Notes under the pieces: generated by a model
The model's input: the letters and a program-made list of their open reading frames with translations, nothing else
Told to the model about the DNA's origin: nothing
Databases searched by the model: none
Position numbers and translations under genes: made by a program
DNA from: Haloglomus salinum
Lineage (GTDB): Archaea; Halobacteriota; Halobacteria; Halobacteriales; Haloarculaceae
Length of the DNA stretch: 64,000 nucleotides
Assembly (NCBI RefSeq): GCF_024298825.1
Contig: NZ_CP101153.1
Location: 496,001 to 560,000, forward strand
Direction of reading: 5' to 3'
Shown here: in pieces, positions 29,457 to 54,271 of the stretch
How the letters are laid out: each line of letters opens with the position of its first letter
Numbering within the stretch: the stretch's first letter is position 1

Positions 29457-29465
29457 CATATAAAT
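29457..29465 (-). promoter_or_regulatory. Strong TATA box of the tubulin-like gene
   Basis: The coding strand reads ATTTATATG, the best archaeal TATA match in the window. Its centre is about 26 bases upstream of the ATG at 29435, consistent with a leaderless, well-expressed transcript. Confidence 0.6.
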
Positions 29466-45074: not shown

Positions 45075-45149
45075 AGCGGGATGGGATAGCCAGGAGATTC
45101 CGCCGGGCTCATAACCCGGAGATCGGACGTTCAAATCGTCCTCCCGCTA
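45075..45149 (+). tRNA. tRNA-Met (CAT), initiator type
   Basis: A 75-base cloverleaf. The acceptor stem agcggga/tcccgct is fully paired with discriminator A. The anticodon loop is CTCATAA within a stem of three G-C pairs (ggg/ccc), the hallmark of initiator tRNA-Met. The T arm is ggacgttcaaatcgtcc. CCA is not encoded. No intron is present. No integrated element was seen at its 3' end. Confidence 0.95.
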
Positions 45150-45425
45150 CTCGAGATTTACTAACGATTTTCCGAGAGTATAGCTGAATTCTTCGGCCAG
45201 GTCCACTCATATTCCACTTTTCCCGGTCGAACGTCACATACCAGAACACAGCACTCGGCCCTGTGGCCGACGACTACCACTACCGGGCGGCGATTACGCG
45301 GCTTCGGACAGGGGCATCCGAGCGTCGGCTGCTGGAGCGAACGGTCGGCGAGTTCCGGGACGAGGGCCAGCTTCGCCGTCGAACGTGGGGTTCCTGGAGC
45401 GGGAGCCGATGGCGAGGGGTCGTAC
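45150..45425. other. Gap after the tRNA gene
   Basis: 276 bases. An A/T-rich start (ttactaacgattttccgag) may help terminate the tRNA transcript. An open frame from about 45263 is antisense to the 33-residue gene and arginine-rich, so it was not called. Confidence 0.4.
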
Positions 45426-47493: not shown

Positions 47494-47517
47494 CCTGTCC
47501 GCGCCCGACTCGCAACC

Positions 47518-50043
47518 GTGCAACCGGACGCCGGCGCCCTCGTGGCCGCGCTCGCCCTGCCGTTCGTCGCGGCCCTGCTGGTCCCCGTGCTGTTCCGCGT
47601 GCTGGGCCAGCGCGTCGCCTTCTTCGCGGCCGCGGTCGCAGCGGGCAGTTTCGGCCTGCTCGCGACCCAGTACGGCGCCCACGGCGCGGTCCAGCTCCCC
47701 TGGATACCCTCGCTCGGCGTCACCCTCACGCTCTACGTCGACGGGCTCGCCCTGCTCATCGGCTTCCTCGCCAGCGGCGTCGGCGTCCTCGTCTTCACCT
47801 ATTCGTACGGCTACATGGCCCACGAGCACGGCCACGTCAAGTACTACGCCACGCTGCTCGCGTTCATGGGGTCGATGCTCGGCGTCGCGTTCGCCGCCGA
47901 CCTCCTCGCGCTGTTCGTCTTCTGGGAGCTCACGTCGGTCACCTCCTTTCTCCTCATCGGCCATCACCAGCGCGAGGCCGACTCACAGTACGCCGCGCGC
48001 AAGTCGATGCTCATCACGGTCGCGGGCGGGCTATTCATGCTCGCCGGGTTCCTCGTCCTCGCGTTCGCCTCCGGTGACACGGTCGCCGGCCGGACCTTCG
48101 TCCTCATCGGCACCGAGAACTCGCTCATCGCCAACGGCGAGGCCGTCCGCGAGGCCCTTCGCGCAAGCGGGTTGTTCGTGCCCGCGCTCGCGCTCGTGGC
48201 TGTGGGCGCAGTGACCAAATCGGCCCAGGCCCCGTTCCACGTCTGGCTGCCGAATGCGATGGAGGCGCCCACACCCGTCTCGGCGTTCCTCCACAGCGCG
48301 ACGATGGTCAAGGCCGGCGTCTACCTCGTCGGCCGCTTCCGGCCGCTGTTCGTTCCCGACCTGCCCGCCGTTCCGGAGTGGACGCTCCTGCTCGCGACGC
48401 TCGGCCTCGTCTCGATGACCATCACGGCCATCCTCGCCGTCGGCGCGACCGACATCAAGGAACTGCTCGCGTACTCCACGGCCTCCCATCTGGGCCTCAT
48501 CATCGCGGGCTACGGGCTGGCAGGCGCCGAGGCGCTCGAACTCGGGGCCGAGACGGGTGCCTTCCACATCTTCAACCACGCCGTGTTCAAGGCGACTCTG
48601 TTCCTCGTCGCAGGAATCGTCGCGCACGAGGCCCACACACGGAAGATATCGGAACTCGGCGGGCTCCGGAAGGACCTCCCCATCGTCGCCGGTGTCACGG
48701 GCATCGCCGCGCTCGGGATGGCCGGCGTCCCGCCGTTCAACGGCTTCTGGTCGAAGGAGCTCCTCTTCGAGACGACCTACTACGTCGCGACGGCCAACGG
48801 CGGCTGGTTCTGGCTCTATCCCGCCATCGCCGTCTTCGGGAGCGTGTTCACGTTCCTCTACTCCCTGAAGTTCCTCTCGCTGTTCTTCGGCGACCGGCCC
48901 GACGCCCTCGCGGATGTCGACATCCACCGGCCGCCGCTGTCGATGCTCGCTCCCCCCGCGTTGCTGGCGGGTATCGCCATCGTCGCCGGCCTCGTCCCGC
49001 AGGTCGCCATCGACGCCATCGTCCAGTCGGCGTTCGAGGCGAGCGTCCCGGTCGGCGTCGAGGCCCACTCGCTGAAGCTGTCGATTCCGAAGCTGTTCAC
49101 CTTCACGCCGTACCTCGGGATGAGCCTCCTGACAATCGCCCTGGGCGCGGTCGCGTACCCGTTCTACGACCGCCTCCACGCGGGTGTCCGGCGCGCCCGC
49201 GCCGTGCCCTACACGAGCCCGAACTGGTACTACGACTCGCTCACCGAGGGGGCGAACGGCGTCTCCCGTCGAGTCGCCATCGCCGTCCACGGCGGCGCGT
49301 TCCGGACGTACGCTGCCCCATTGCTCCTCGCGACCGCGACCATCGCGCTCGCCGGCTACGCCGCGGCGGGTGCCATCTCCATCGACGGGGTCGGGGCGCT
49401 CCCCTCCGCACCGCTCGCGCTCGTCCTCGGTGTCGCCGTGGTCGGCGCGCTGGCCGTCGCCCGCGCGCCCTCGCACATCGCGGGCGTGCTCACGCTCTCC
49501 ATCCTCGGGTTCATGGTCGCCATCGTCTACATCCTCGCGAACGCGCCCGACCTCGCGCTGACCCAGCTCGTCATCGAGACGCTCGTGCTGGTCATCTTCC
49601 TGCTCGTGCTCGACAAGCTCCCGGCGTACTACGGGGAGATACAGAGCCGCGCCCGGACGGTTGCGGACGCCGCGCTCGCGTCGCTCGTCGGCTTCACCGT
49701 CTTCGCGACGGTCATCGTCGCGACGAGCGCACAGCCCGAGGGCCCCATCTTCGAGTACTTCCTCGCCCGTGCGGGTGTGCCGGCCGAACACGGGCCGGTC
49801 TTCGCCGACTACGGCGGCGGCAGCAACGTCGTCAACGTCATCCTCGTCGACTTCCGGGCGTTCGACACGCTCGGTGAGATATCCGTCGTCGCGATGGCCG
49901 CGCTCTCGGTGCTGACCCTCATCGGGATGCGCGCCCGGACGGACGCCGGCGTGAACGAACCCGAGGCGACCGAGGAGGAGGAGGGCGCGGCCGTGGCCGA
50001 TGGCGGGTACGGCGAGCCAGCCGACGGGGGTGACACCCGATGA
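47518..50043 (+). CDS. mrpA: Mrp antiporter subunit A
   Basis: An 841-residue membrane protein of about 20 helices. The N-terminal 500 residues are NuoL/proton-pump-like (VFWELTSVTSFLLIGHH; KSAQAPFHVWLPNAMEAPTPVSAFLHSATMV shortened in mind; KELLAYSTASHLG). The C-terminal part carries the DUF4040-type stretch NAPDLALTQLVIETLVLVIF and VDFRAFDTLGEIS expected of MrpA. It is the largest subunit of the Mrp Na+/H+ antiporter, important for sodium export and pH control in a halophile. The GTG start at 47518 has its own box, and the end overlaps mrpB (ATGA). Confidence 0.95.
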   Translation: MQPDAGALVAALALPFVAALLVPVLFRVLGQRVAFFAAAVAAGSFGLLATQYGAHGAVQLPWIPSLGVTLTLYVDGLALLIGFLASGVGVLVFTYSYGYMAHEHGHVKYYATLLAFMGSMLGVAFAADLLALFVFWELTSVTSFLLIGHHQREADSQYAARKSMLITVAGGLFMLAGFLVLAFASGDTVAGRTFVLIGTENSLIANGEAVREALRASGLFVPALALVAVGAVTKSAQAPFHVWLPNAMEAPTPVSAFLHSATMVKAGVYLVGRFRPLFVPDLPAVPEWTLLLATLGLVSMTITAILAVGATDIKELLAYSTASHLGLIIAGYGLAGAEALELGAETGAFHIFNHAVFKATLFLVAGIVAHEAHTRKISELGGLRKDLPIVAGVTGIAALGMAGVPPFNGFWSKELLFETTYYVATANGGWFWLYPAIAVFGSVFTFLYSLKFLSLFFGDRPDALADVDIHRPPLSMLAPPALLAGIAIVAGLVPQVAIDAIVQSAFEASVPVGVEAHSLKLSIPKLFTFTPYLGMSLLTIALGAVAYPFYDRLHAGVRRARAVPYTSPNWYYDSLTEGANGVSRRVAIAVHGGAFRTYAAPLLLATATIALAGYAAAGAISIDGVGALPSAPLALVLGVAVVGALAVARAPSHIAGVLTLSILGFMVAIVYILANAPDLALTQLVIETLVLVIFLLVLDKLPAYYGEIQSRARTVADAALASLVGFTVFATVIVATSAQPEGPIFEYFLARAGVPAEHGPVFADYGGGSNVVNVILVDFRAFDTLGEISVVAMAALSVLTLIGMRARTDAGVNEPEATEEEEGAAVADGGYGEPADGGDTR

Positions 50044-50510
50044 GCCTGGACCGCGAACCGACGGTCATCGCGAAGACGGTCACCCGGACGGTCGTCCCCA
50101 TCATCACCGTCACGGCGGTCGCACTGCTCATCCAGGGGCACAACCTGCCGGGCGGGGGGTTCATCGCAGGCGTCCTCACGGCGACGGCGTTCGTCCTGAT
50201 GTACGTCATCTACGGCATCGAGGCCGTGCGTCGGGACCTCGTCACCCGCGCGGAGGGGTACGGGATGCTATCCGGGCCCACGGAAGCGTACGAGCGGACC
50301 TTCGCCGCCGGCCTCGCGCTGGCGGTCGCCTCGGGGGTCGCCGCGATGTTCTTCGAGGTGCCGTTCCTCACGCAGGCGGTGGTGTTCCTCGAAGGGGTCC
50401 CGCTGTACGGCGAACTGGAGTACGCCTCGGCGCTGGCGTTCGACCTCGGCGTCTACTTCGTCGTCGTCGGGTCGCTCCTGACGATTCTCGCGGTGGTGGG
50501 GAAAGAATGA
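50040..50510 (+). CDS. mrpB: Mrp antiporter subunit B
   Basis: A 156-residue protein with the MnhB domain: VIAKTVTRTVVPIITV, QGHNLPGGGFIAGVLTATAFVL and four helices. It follows mrpA with a 4-base overlap. In Mrp complexes MrpB joins the A/C/D core. The C-terminus (GVYFVVVGSLLTILAVVGKE) overlaps the start of the downstream microprotein (ATGA). Confidence 0.94.
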   Translation: MSLDREPTVIAKTVTRTVVPIITVTAVALLIQGHNLPGGGFIAGVLTATAFVLMYVIYGIEAVRRDLVTRAEGYGMLSGPTEAYERTFAAGLALAVASGVAAMFFEVPFLTQAVVFLEGVPLYGELEYASALAFDLGVYFVVVGSLLTILAVVGKE

Positions 50511-50623
50511 GCGGCGTCGAATATCGAGAGGGTGAGTCCGTGACTCCGAATTACCGAGAGTACAAGAGAAACAGACCCGAAATGCACGATATCTACGGTG
50601 AACCGACGGAGGTGACGGCCTGA
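50507..50623 (+). CDS. 38-residue microprotein inside the Mrp operon
   Basis: A complete 38-codon frame starting ATG at 50507, overlapping the mrpB stop (ATGA), and ending TGA at 50621-50623, overlapping the mrpC ATG by one base. The protein reads MSGVEYREGESVTPNY then REYKRNRPEMHDIYGEP and ends TEVTA. It is soluble, with tyrosines and basic residues, and lower in G/C than its neighbours (gagagtacaagagaaacag). No helix crosses the membrane. Spacing on both sides argues for translation; function unknown, perhaps an accessory or regulatory Mrp subunit. Confidence 0.68.
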   Translation: MSGVEYREGESVTPNYREYKRNRPEMHDIYGEPTEVTA

Positions 50624-51069
50624 TGACGGAGGTCGTCCTCGCGCTCGCGCTGGGCCTGCTGTTCGCGCTGGGGACCTTCCTCGTCCTCCGGCGGGACGTG
50701 GTCCGGGTCGTCTGGGGCGTGACCATCATCTCGCAGGCGGCCAACCTCTACCTCGTCACGATGGGCTTCGGCCTGACGGGGGCCGAGGGCGCCGACGCGC
50801 CGGTCCTGACAGGCGGTGCCGAGGCGCCGTTCGCCGACCCGCTGGTGCAGGCCCTGGTCCTGACGGCCATCGTCATCGGCTTCGGGACCACTGCGTTCGC
50901 GCTCGTCCTCACCTTCCGCGTCTACGAGGAGAACGGCACCATCGACCTCGAGGAACTCGCCTCGAACCCCTTCGAGGGCCCCCAGGCGGCTGCCGCAGAG
51001 GCACGGGCCGACGGCGGCCGAGCCGAATCGGACCGCGGGGACGACCCCGCCGACGGAGGTGAGCGCTGA
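50623..51069 (+). CDS. mrpC: Mrp antiporter subunit C
   Basis: A 148-residue NuoK-like subunit with three helices (VVLALALGLLFALGTFLVL; VVWGVTIISQAANLYLV; ALVLTAIVIGFGTTAFALVL) and an acidic C-terminal tail of about 40 residues rich in Ala/Asp/Gly. Its ATG overlaps the microprotein stop and its TGA overlaps the mrpD ATG. Confidence 0.94.
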   Translation: MTEVVLALALGLLFALGTFLVLRRDVVRVVWGVTIISQAANLYLVTMGFGLTGAEGADAPVLTGGAEAPFADPLVQALVLTAIVIGFGTTAFALVLTFRVYEENGTIDLEELASNPFEGPQAAAAEARADGGRAESDRGDDPADGGER

Positions 51070-52910
51070 TGGCGTCGCAGGTGGTCATCGCGCCGCTGCT
51101 GGCCGCACTCGTGACAGCCATCCTCGCGCTCCTGACGCGCTGGAGTCCGCAGGTCCAGCGGACGCTCTCGGTCGCAGGCGCCGTGGCCTACGTCGTCGGC
51201 GTCGCGGCGCTGTTCCGGGCGGTCCGGCTCGACCCGGACAACCGCCTCGTCTACCAGGTGTCGAACTGGGACGCCCCGTTCGGCATCACGCTCGTGGCGG
51301 ACCCGCTATCCGTGCTGTTGCTCGCGCTCGCGGCGGTCGTCTCGCTCGTCGCCACCGTCTACAGCGTCCGTGCCATCGACCGCGAGGGCCAGCGCCTCTC
51401 CTACCACGCGCTGTATCACTTCATGGTCGTCGGCATCACGGGGGCGTTCCTCACCGGCGACATCTTCAACCTGTTCGTCTGGTTCGAGGTGATGCTGATG
51501 TCCTCGTACGTGCTGGTGGCGTTCTACAGCGGCCCCGACAGCACCCGCGCCGCGCTCCAGTACGCCGTCCTCAACCTGCTCGGGAGCGCGGTGATGCTGC
51601 TGGCCATCGGCGGCCTCTACGCCACGACCGGGACGCTCAACATGGCCGACATGGCCCGCCGGCTGGCCGAACCCGCCGCGTACGGCATCGACCCGGCACC
51701 CGTCCTCGGCATCTCGTCCGTGCTGCTCGTCGTGTTCCTGCTGAAGGCGGGCGTCGTCCCGTTCCAGTTCTGGGTCCCCGACGCCTATCGGGCCGCACCG
51801 GCACCGGCGACGGCGATGCTTGCCGGCGTCGTGAAGAAGGTCGGTGTCTACGCCGTCATCCGGCTCTACTTCACGGTCTTCGCGGCCGCACCCCTCGCGG
51901 TGTCGCTGCCCGGCATCGAGGGGGGCCCGGAACTGGGCTTCCTGGCCTTCTTCGGGCCCATCCTCTTCCTGATGGCCACCGCGAGCACCATCCTCGGTGG
52001 TATCGGTGCCATCGACCAGCCCGACATGGAGGGCCTGTTCGCCTACTCCTCCATCGCCCAGGTCGGATTCATCATGCTCCCGCTCGCGGTGGCCGCGACC
52101 GCCACCGAGCCGGCGGTCCGAACCCTCGGCATCGCGGCCGCGCTCGTCTACAGCGTCAACCACGGGCTGGCGAAGGGGCTGCTGTTCATGGCCGTCGGCG
52201 CCGTCGAGGACGCCGTCGGCTCCACGCGCCTGTCCGACCTCGGCGGCCTGACGGAGGCCGCGCCGGTCCTCTCGGGGACCTTCCTCATCGGTACGCTCTC
52301 GCTTGTGGGTATCCCGCCGCTGACGGGCTTCTTCGCGAAGCTCCTCGTCTTCGACACAGCTGTCCGGGCCGGGGCACCGGTCGCGCTGGCGGTCGCGCTC
52401 GTCGGTGCGGTCCTCACCATCGCGTACGTCACCCGCGCGTGGAACCGCGCCTTCTGGGGCGAACCCGGTCCCCGGGTCCGTGCCGCGGCGGTCGCCGCGC
52501 TGGCCGGGGCGGGCGGGGATTCGGGGGACACCGCGCTGGCGGACGGCGGGCAGGCGGGCGACGGCGACGACCACGTCGGCCACGACGACGTGCCGAGCAG
52601 CCACGAGGGAGCCCACGACGACCACGACAGCCACGGTGACGACGTGTCGGCTGCTGCGAGCATCGCCGACCCCGTCCTCGTGACCTGCACGCTGGCGCTG
52701 GCGGTCCTGCTGGTCGCGCTCGGTATCGGCTTCGACCCGCTCTACACGGCCACCACGCAGGCCGCGAGCGCCGCCCTCGACACGGGCGCCTACGTCGACG
52801 CCGTCGACCCGACGACCGCGGGCGAGGCCCTCGCCGGCGATGGTGGGGGCGGTGGCGGCGGGCACGACATCGAGACCCTCCGGGACCTGTTCGGAGGTGA
52901 CGGCCGATGA
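51069..52910 (+). CDS. mrpD: Mrp antiporter subunit D
   Basis: A 613-residue NuoN/NuoM-like proton-pumping subunit with about 14 helices. Family features include SYHALYHFMVVGITGAFLTG, GVVPFQFWVPDAYRAAPAPA and YSSIAQVGFIMLPL. An unusual hydrophilic insert at about 480-535 contains a His/Asp-rich run (DDHVGHDDVPSSHEGAHDDH) before the last helix; ordinary MrpD lacks it. The stop overlaps mrpE (ATGA). Confidence 0.93.
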   Translation: MASQVVIAPLLAALVTAILALLTRWSPQVQRTLSVAGAVAYVVGVAALFRAVRLDPDNRLVYQVSNWDAPFGITLVADPLSVLLLALAAVVSLVATVYSVRAIDREGQRLSYHALYHFMVVGITGAFLTGDIFNLFVWFEVMLMSSYVLVAFYSGPDSTRAALQYAVLNLLGSAVMLLAIGGLYATTGTLNMADMARRLAEPAAYGIDPAPVLGISSVLLVVFLLKAGVVPFQFWVPDAYRAAPAPATAMLAGVVKKVGVYAVIRLYFTVFAAAPLAVSLPGIEGGPELGFLAFFGPILFLMATASTILGGIGAIDQPDMEGLFAYSSIAQVGFIMLPLAVAATATEPAVRTLGIAAALVYSVNHGLAKGLLFMAVGAVEDAVGSTRLSDLGGLTEAAPVLSGTFLIGTLSLVGIPPLTGFFAKLLVFDTAVRAGAPVALAVALVGAVLTIAYVTRAWNRAFWGEPGPRVRAAAVAALAGAGGDSGDTALADGGQAGDGDDHVGHDDVPSSHEGAHDDHDSHGDDVSAAASIADPVLVTCTLALAVLLVALGIGFDPLYTATTQAASAALDTGAYVDAVDPTTAGEALAGDGGGGGGGHDIETLRDLFGGDGR

Positions 52911-53530
52911 CCCGTCGCTGGCTCGCGAACGGCCTGGCGCTGGCGGTCCTGTGGCTGTTCGTCCGCGGTGTCGACCCGACACCGCTCCCGAGCGGACTGG
53001 TCGTCATCGCCGAGGAGCTCGTCATCGGCCTGCTCGTGGGGCTCCCGACGGCGTTCGCGCTCCGGGCGTTCTACGCGGACGAGTTCGCCGTTCGCCCCTC
53101 GCTCCGGGTCGTTCCGTACGCTGCCCGGTACATCGCGGTCTTCGTCCGGGAGCTGTTGACGGCGAACGTCGACGTGGCCTACCGCGTCCTCGCGCCGTCG
53201 ATGCCCATCGAGCCCGATGTCGTCGCGGTCCCGCTCCGCGTCGAGTCCGACGCCGCCATCACCACCATCGCGAACTCCATCACACTCACCCCCGGCACGC
53301 TCACCATGGACCACGACGCCGAGACCAACACGCTGTACGTGCACGCCATCAACTGTCAGGATCACGCATCCGTCGTCGCACCCATCCGGACCTGGGAGGA
53401 CTACGCGCTGGTCATCTTCGAGGGGCGCGACCCCTCGACGCCGGTTCCCGGCCCCGACCCCGGTCAGCCGTCGGCCGACGGCGGCACGCCCGGGGCGGCG
53501 GCGAACGGAGGTGAGTCGGATGGCGAATGA
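52907..53530 (+). CDS. mrpE: Mrp antiporter subunit E
   Basis: A 207-residue MnhE-type protein: two N-terminal helices (WLANGLALAVLWLFVRGV; VVIAEELVIGLLVGLPTAF) and a cytoplasmic domain with NSITLTPGTLTMD and LYVHAINC typical of MrpE. An acidic Pro/Gly-rich tail follows. The stop overlaps the start of mrpF by 11 bases. Confidence 0.92.
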   Translation: MTRRWLANGLALAVLWLFVRGVDPTPLPSGLVVIAEELVIGLLVGLPTAFALRAFYADEFAVRPSLRVVPYAARYIAVFVRELLTANVDVAYRVLAPSMPIEPDVVAVPLRVESDAAITTIANSITLTPGTLTMDHDAETNTLYVHAINCQDHASVVAPIRTWEDYALVIFEGRDPSTPVPGPDPGQPSADGGTPGAAANGGESDGE

Positions 53531-53807
53531 GGCCGCGTTCCTCGACCCCGTCCTGCTGGCGGCGCTCGTCCTCTCGGCGGCCATCACGCTGGTCGCGGGC
53601 TACCGGGTCATCGTCGGCCCGACGACGCCCGACCGCGTCGTGGCGCTGGACGTCATCGGGACGAACGTGGTCGCCATCGCCGCGCTGTACGCGATGTTCT
53701 CCGCCCGCGGCCTCTTCGCCGACGTGGCGCTCGTGCTCGCCATCATCGGCTTCATCAGCACCATCACGGTCGCGCGCTACGTGACCGAGGGGGACATCAT
53801 CGAGTGA
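53520..53807 (+). CDS. mrpF: Mrp antiporter subunit F
   Basis: A 95-residue three-helix subunit: VLLAALVLSAAITLVAGYRV, the conserved GPTTPDRVVALDVIGTNVVA and LVLAIIGFISTITVARY. Starts at the ATG 53520-53522 inside the end of mrpE, overlapping by 11 bases, and ends overlapping mrpG (GTGA). Confidence 0.93.
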   Translation: MANEAAFLDPVLLAALVLSAAITLVAGYRVIVGPTTPDRVVALDVIGTNVVAIAALYAMFSARGLFADVALVLAIIGFISTITVARYVTEGDIIE

Positions 53808-54271
53808 CCATGTTCGACACCACCATCGCCCCGACCGCGCTCGCTCGCATCCTCGACCCCGTCGTGCTCGTCTCGGAGAGCGGTGGGCCCCCGACGGTCG
53901 GCCCCATCAGAGGGGCTGTCGTCGTCGCGCTCGTCGCGCTCGGGGCCTTCTTCCTCATCGTGGGGACCGTCGGCCTCGTCCGGCTCCCGGACATCTACAA
54001 CCGGATGCACGCAACCAGCAAGGCGACCACCATCGGCGCCGCGTCCATCCTGCTGGCCAACACGGCCTACTTCGGGCCGCGGGGGGCCGGACTCGTCTCG
54101 CTGGTCGGCATCGTCTTCCTGTTCGTCACCGCCCCGACGGGGTCGCACATGATCAGTCGGGCCGCCCAGCGGATGGGTGTCGACTTCGCCGGCGACGTGA
54201 CCTGGCCGGGTGCGAGCGGCGACGTCGACGACCCCACCGAGTCCGACGGGACCGAACCGGCTGACGACTGA
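53804..54271 (+). CDS. mrpG: Mrp antiporter subunit G
   Basis: A 155-residue subunit with three helices and the MrpG motif GTVGLVRLPDIYNRMHATSKATTIG. The C-terminal 30 residues are acidic. It begins at GTG 53804 overlapping mrpF, or at ATG 53810. It closes the operon; the next gene is on the other strand. The order A, B, microprotein, C, D, E, F, G follows the common seven-gene Mrp order apart from the extra gene. Confidence 0.92.
   Translation: MTMFDTTIAPTALARILDPVVLVSESGGPPTVGPIRGAVVVALVALGAFFLIVGTVGLVRLPDIYNRMHATSKATTIGAASILLANTAYFGPRGAGLVSLVGIVFLFVTAPTGSHMISRAAQRMGVDFAGDVTWPGASGDVDDPTESDGTEPADD

Follow-up and report, generated by a model that had tools for sequence, protein, structure and literature searches.

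A small open reading frame between mrpB and mrpC in Haloglomus as a probable translational bridge

Introduction

In the mrp operon of Haloglomus salinum an open reading frame of only 38 codons is wedged between mrpB and mrpC, and the question is whether this frame is kept for the peptide that it would encode or for some other reason. The stretch of DNA analysed here, referred to as the window, comprises 64,000 nucleotides (positions 496,001 to 560,000 of contig NZ_CP101153.1). An earlier note on this DNA, made from the sequence alone, proposed either an eighth, regulatory component of the antiporter or a recent insertion held in frame by its overlaps with the neighbouring genes. Such overlaps matter for translation: of 14 overlapping gene pairs tested in Haloferax volcanii and E. 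coli, 13 showed strict translational coupling, and the Shine-Dalgarno sequence makes a contribution that varies in Haloferax and is helpful, not essential (Huber et al. 2019, PMC6728339). The Haloferax overlapping-gene study also reports that genes encoding subunits of heteromeric complexes are enriched for short overlaps, and in this organism reinitiation is lost, or almost lost, across gaps of 22-23 nt (Huber et al. 2023, PMC10666635). Here we present comparative evidence suggesting that the mini-ORF probably serves as a translational bridge, one that keeps mrpB and mrpC coupled by termination-reinitiation across an insertion.

Results

The mini-ORF is joined to both of its neighbours, through an ATGA with mrpB (which ends ..AATGA) and a TGATG with mrpC, and the earlier note had its coordinates, frame, 38-residue length and both overlaps exactly right. 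The features of this part of the operon are as follows.

50040..50510, + strand: mrpB (MnhB); PF04039, E 2.9e-30; its stop TGA lies inside the ATGA at 50507-50510
50507..50623, + strand: candidate bridge mini-ORF (38 codons and a TGA stop), running from the mrpB stop to the mrpC start
50607..50614 (give or take a base or two), + strand: candidate Shine-Dalgarno sequence GGAGGTGA for mrpC, read from the sequence, within the last mini-ORF codons
50623..51069, + strand: mrpC (4L-like subunit, Oxidored_q2/4L); PF00420, E 3.6e-22; its ATG overlaps the mini-ORF stop (TGATG)
51069..52910, + strand: mrpD (antiporter D); Pfam E 2.9e-53; overlaps mrpC by 1 nt
52907..53530, + strand: mrpE (MNHE); Pfam E 3.3e-38; overlaps mrpD by 4 nt
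53520..53807, + strand: mrpF, named from position and length; overlaps mrpE by 11 nt
53804..54271, + strand: mrpG (PhaG/MnhG); Pfam E 4.5e-25; GTGA overlap with mrpF

Short overlaps join all the genes of the window's mrp operon (4 nt at A/B, B/ORF, D/E and, as GTGA, F/G; 1 nt at ORF/C and C/D; 11 nt at E/F), which bears out what the earlier note said of the spacing throughout the operon. The flanking genes fit an Mrp (CPA3) cation/proton antiporter operon, with mrpB, mrpC, mrpD, mrpE and mrpG matching known Mrp families in Pfam and mrpA and mrpF assigned by position; the mini-ORF product matches no Mrp subunit, and no Pfam or NCBIfam model matched it at E 1. The mini-ORF is poorer in G+C than its surroundings (0.54 versus 0.70 for 47501-54271) and its product is hydrophilic (GRAVY -1.38), in keeping with the low G+C content and non-membrane character that the note had reported. 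We also note that a tRNA-Met gene (anticodon CAT; 45075-45150) lies approximately 2.4 kb upstream of the operon, and that the DNA just after it is among the least conserved relative to H. halophilum, with identity falling to 0.49. The most diverged stretch in the blocks aligned to H. halophilum is a His- and Asp-rich linker near the C-terminus of MrpD (52497-52676), where identity falls to 0.39 and up to 53 of 90 columns are gaps.

We compared five Haloglomus lineages: the window, H. halophilum ZY41, H. irregulare, MAG QS_4_70_19 and a same-genus genome, G048. MrpC identity to the window's protein is 97% in H. halophilum ZY41, 89% in MAG QS_4_70_19 and 80% in H. irregulare. The earlier note had named a frame broken in close relatives as the outcome that would speak against its proposal; upon examination, the mini-ORF is intact, with both overlaps, in all five lineages (38, 38, 38, 38 and 43 codons). 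This open frame and the retained overlap architecture fit the note's suggestion that the mini-ORF is probably translated. By sequence comparison the insertion is genus-wide and not recent, and thus the note's alternative, an insertion held in frame by its overlaps, comes close to the reading that we favour except in calling the insertion recent. When in-frame stops are summed over the five inserts there are 0 in forward frame 0, 15 in frame 1 and 4 in frame 2, and the mini-ORF frame is the sole forward frame that is open in every lineage. Under dinucleotide shuffles the probability of an open frame is 0.16-0.73 per lineage, and the product of these probabilities is 0.005 on the assumption of independence among the lineages, which holds only in part.

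What the earlier note called a conserved-looking gene turns out to be conserved in its open frame and two overlaps, not in its amino-acid sequence. The four 38-residue peptides share between 2 and 14 of 38 residues; between the same lineages, MrpB is 80-96% identical and MrpC 77-97%. Across the five lineages the predicted pI of the peptide spans 4.1-11.8, and neither charge nor hydropathy is kept. Substitutions at codon positions 1, 2 and 3 number 18/18/19 over the whole insert between the window and H. halophilum, 20/20/16 between the window and G048, and 18/16/16 between H. halophilum and G048; codon positions are struck evenly, and no purifying selection at the amino-acid level was found in these three pairs. 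When the window is set against H. halophilum, divergence amounts to 20-25% at the fourfold sites of mrpC and mrpB but to 56% in the middle of the insert. Local identity at the insert falls to 0.51, like that of intergenic spacers, in one of 25 identity dips along the aligned window and H. halophilum chromosomes, many of the others of which, judged by position, appear to sit in intergenic stretches and protein linkers. In sequence terms, then, the insert diverges like intergenic DNA. The last residues of the peptide are kept (as EVTA in two lineages and in variant form in the rest) because their codons contain GGAGGTGA, or a near match to it, 5' of mrpC, and so this conservation is at the level of the DNA. 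The pooled codon-phase composition of the mini-ORFs shows GC3 above GC2 (shuffle p 0.009), a weak bias that hints at coding character and leaves room for coding constraint.

To place the Haloglomus arrangement in a wider setting, the mrpB/mrpC junction was read in 158 loci, drawn from part of the genomes with an mrpB match. Of these, 154 passed a motif filter, and 127 distinct junctions were scored, nearly all of them haloarchaeal and one (L066) from a nanohaloarchaeal MAG; the loci outside the filter were L053 and L123, which run directly into MrpC, L136, which is bridged and is additional to the bridged junctions counted below, and L067, a bacterial outgroup. The end of mrpB is ATGA in 118 of the distinct junctions and GTGA in 9. 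The frame that opens there is MrpC itself in 109 of the 127, with no separate ORF; 91 of these direct junctions begin 11-13 residues before the first conserved MrpC motif, and 18 carry an N-terminal extension. The other 18 junctions contain a separate mini-ORF of 14-54 codons. In all 18 it ends on the mrpC start codon, with an overlap of 1 nt in the 5 Haloglomus junctions and 4 nt in the 13 others, and a short start/stop overlap of 1 or 4 nt is present on both sides of the mini-ORF in every case, the window's included. The 127 distinct junctions include no haloarchaeal spacer that lacks a bridge. The 36 junctions with any insertion divide by phase into 18 that keep the frame of MrpC, 18 whose phase is compatible with a 1- or 4-nt overlap, and 0 in the third phase.

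The bridge peptides, compared by eye, are mutually unlike outside close kin, and we found no peptide similar to the Haloglomus product at the mrpB/mrpC junction outside this genus. The 18 bridges form about eight groups on a rough tree, which is built from short sequences and weakly supported, and the count of origins rests on that tree. Taking 13 clusters, the joint probability under shuffling of an open frame and the one-in-three phase is approximately 3e-9, whereas simple arithmetic on phase alone, with eight origins, gives approximately 1.5e-4. Outside Haloglomus the probability of an open frame is 0.5-1.0 for short GC-rich spacers; an open frame is thus unsurprising there, and the phase carries most of the weight. 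Elsewhere in the operon, the A to B junction is -4 in 29 cases and -1 in 1 (30 resolved of 35), and all 35 C to D junctions overlap or abut.

Several individual loci are also of interest. The six genomes of genus g6 include a direct junction (L022), N-terminal extensions fused to MrpC (L024, L028 and L029) and separate bridges (L018 and L101), and this genus is therefore a good place in which to study interconversion among the three states. MrpC extensions of roughly 15-41 residues occur at L019, L021, L023, L024, L026, L028-L031 and L048, several of them Ala- or Ser-rich and reminiscent of signal peptides. At L127 (G127:C38), mrpC appears to lose its frame about 100 bases into the gene that follows a 15-codon bridge. 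In-frame TGA codons occur in the mrpB matches at G135:C38:9541-10011 and G119:C1:55174-55641, which may be broken, missequenced, or matches that overrun a stop.

Bridged and direct junctions can also be compared with respect to GGAGGTGA, which we take to be a Shine-Dalgarno sequence from its complementarity to the haloarchaeal anti-SD and which in the mini-ORF lies within the upstream frame, just 5' of the mrpC start. A 7-8 nt match is present in the 19 nt before the mrpC start in 10 of 18 bridged junctions and in the 18 nt before it in 8 of 109 direct ones; at the starts of the bridge ORFs themselves there was no such match (0 of 18).

As a control we used 464 kb of the window's genome, in which a rough gene caller yielded 131 same-strand gene pairs with gaps of 15-200 nt. 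Bridging was seen in 3 of the 23 pairs whose upstream stop permits an ATGA or GTGA start, mrpB/mrpC included, and mock frames reached a start overlap in 13, 12 and 10 of the 131 pairs for three downstream mock frames and in 0 for a fourth. Bridging at this near-background frequency is therefore uncommon in the genome at large, and the complete bridging of spacers at mrpB/mrpC is particular to that junction.

Other possible roles for the insert found little in their favour. Five stretches from four lineages fold no better than their shuffles (z 0.14 to 1.35). An internal promoter was rejected, a TATA-like site being absent from all five Haloglomus inserts; the single TTTAWA in the window is at 29459, away from the mini-ORF, and a scan for bacterial-type promoters, a model ill-suited to archaea, returned none. 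A mobile repeat was likewise rejected, since the insert has one full-length copy in the genome and the other 15 matches are of 14-24 nt; a search for a second copy of the peptide gave only a weak match (E 1.29).

Discussion

The operon architecture, the conservation of the frame, the lack of amino-acid conservation and the repeated bridging of unrelated spacers are what we observe; from these we infer translation of the mini-ORF and selection for coupling. In most haloarchaeal junctions the mrpB stop overlaps the mrpC start (ATGA), and ribosomes that finish MrpB would restart on MrpC, which should help to hold the subunits of the complex in step. An insertion of approximately 113 nt at this junction in the ancestor of Haloglomus would have left a gap that breaks termination-reinitiation: given the intolerance of gaps in Haloferax, mrpB and mrpC would be uncoupled unless ribosomes read across. 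The insert can be read from the old ATGA to the TGATG on the mrpC start, where a strong Shine-Dalgarno sequence is found, and ribosomes could thus pass from mrpB to the mini-ORF and on to mrpC in two coupled steps. Selection would then keep the open frame, the two overlaps and the 3' Shine-Dalgarno sequence, with the peptide a by-product that is probably dispensable.

The principal alternative is that the product of the mini-ORF is itself functional, a microprotein that serves as an eighth or regulatory component of Mrp and evolves quickly in Haloglomus. A frame that is open in all five lineages and exactly 38 codons long in four of them would be expected of such a gene, and the weak GC3-over-GC2 bias leans the same way, but we consider it unlikely, because the peptides share as few as 2 and at most 14 of 38 residues, range in pI from 4.1 to 11.8, accumulate substitutions evenly over codon positions and match no Pfam or NCBIfam family. 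The Shine-Dalgarno sequence accounts for the conserved 3' residues, and at this junction other haloarchaea encode either no separate peptide or an unrelated one of 14-54 residues. We therefore rejected an eighth subunit as the leading reading for want of peptide conservation and a family match, and the regulatory component envisaged in the earlier note fares poorly in the same comparison, there being no conserved sequence, charge or hydropathy and no similar peptide outside Haloglomus.

If it is not the peptide that matters, the insert might be a plain spacer whose only function is to supply a Shine-Dalgarno sequence for independent initiation at mrpC, with the open frame incidental. The insert does evolve like intergenic DNA, and a strong GGAGGTGA is frequent before mrpC in bridged junctions and rare in direct ones; incidental frames, however, would not give 18 bridged junctions out of 18 when mock frames reach a start overlap in just 10-13 of 131 pairs (three downstream) or 0 of 131 (the fourth), and we regard this explanation as quite improbable. 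It is very improbable indeed that the mini-ORF is merely a relic, a decayed N-terminal extension of MrpC that was severed by a frameshift. Extensions of this kind are present in 18 of 109 direct junctions, and genus g6 contains direct (L022), fused (L024, L028, L029) and separate (L018, L101) states, but a relic would gather stops, and there are none in five lineages despite near-random middles. Decay of an extension may fit the way in which some bridges arose, but it leaves their persistence unexplained.

The preferred reading, a bridge that maintains coupling, does not by itself predict the exact 38-codon length in four of five Haloglomus lineages whose middles are near-random, and this length may reflect chance or may itself be selected. 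It is tempting to speculate that haloarchaea repeatedly evolve sequence-free bridge genes at mrpB/mrpC, the only product of which is the passage of ribosomes, and that in Haloglomus the length serves as a fixed delay, giving MrpB time to insert into the membrane and fold before synthesis of MrpC starts. Thirty-eight codons is about the length of peptide held in the ribosome tunnel. We nevertheless hold this extension of the idea to be distinctly unlikely.

The Haloglomus arrangement resembles the coupled pairs of Haloferax volcanii (PMC6728339, PMC10666635) in its ATGA and TGATG overlaps, in a Shine-Dalgarno sequence within the upstream frame, in joining subunits of one complex and in a setting where gaps beyond about 20 nt are not tolerated, but differs in that the link is a third, tiny frame without a conserved product; the main text of PMC10666635 nowhere uses the term 'mrp'. 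The closest precedent by analogy would appear to be the MIRU elements of mycobacteria (Supply et al. 1997, as described in review PMC12548453), in which the ORF of a short inserted sequence overlaps the host gene by 4 nt and becomes coupled to it, with the result that the insertion barely affects expression. Both are short inserts whose ORF is coupled, or would be, by a short overlap; unlike the mobile, repeated MIRU, the Haloglomus insert occurs in a single full-length copy in its genome, and the spacers of different genera are unrelated. Short ORFs that act through coupling, by supplying ribosomes to the gene that follows, are also known from uORFs (Shell et al. 2015, cited in the same review) and from CbrX of Pseudomonas putida (PMC6591292), where translation of a short frame drives that of the next gene, as we propose here. 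Those frames lie upstream of a gene, whereas the bridge separates two subunit genes of a single complex, and in relatives these genes are joined by direct coupling. Searches of titles and abstract openings on haloarchaeal Mrp antiporters, Haloglomus, haloarchaeal small proteins, intercistronic-ORF coupling and Haloferax coupling turned up no description of bridge ORFs at mrpB/mrpC. Termination-reinitiation coupling itself is already known, and what would seem to be new is a bridge ORF between two subunit genes.

Lastly, these observations separate a conserved frame from a conserved peptide, and small ORFs wedged between overlapping operon genes could be mistaken for microproteins when, as the comparative evidence suggests here, it is translation that is kept and not the product. 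The mrpB/mrpC junction of haloarchaea also provides a natural insertion series, with spacers of 14-54 codons across which coupling has apparently been preserved over long times, and with this series the proposed requirement that the subunits be made stoichiometrically and in a coupled manner can be tested directly.
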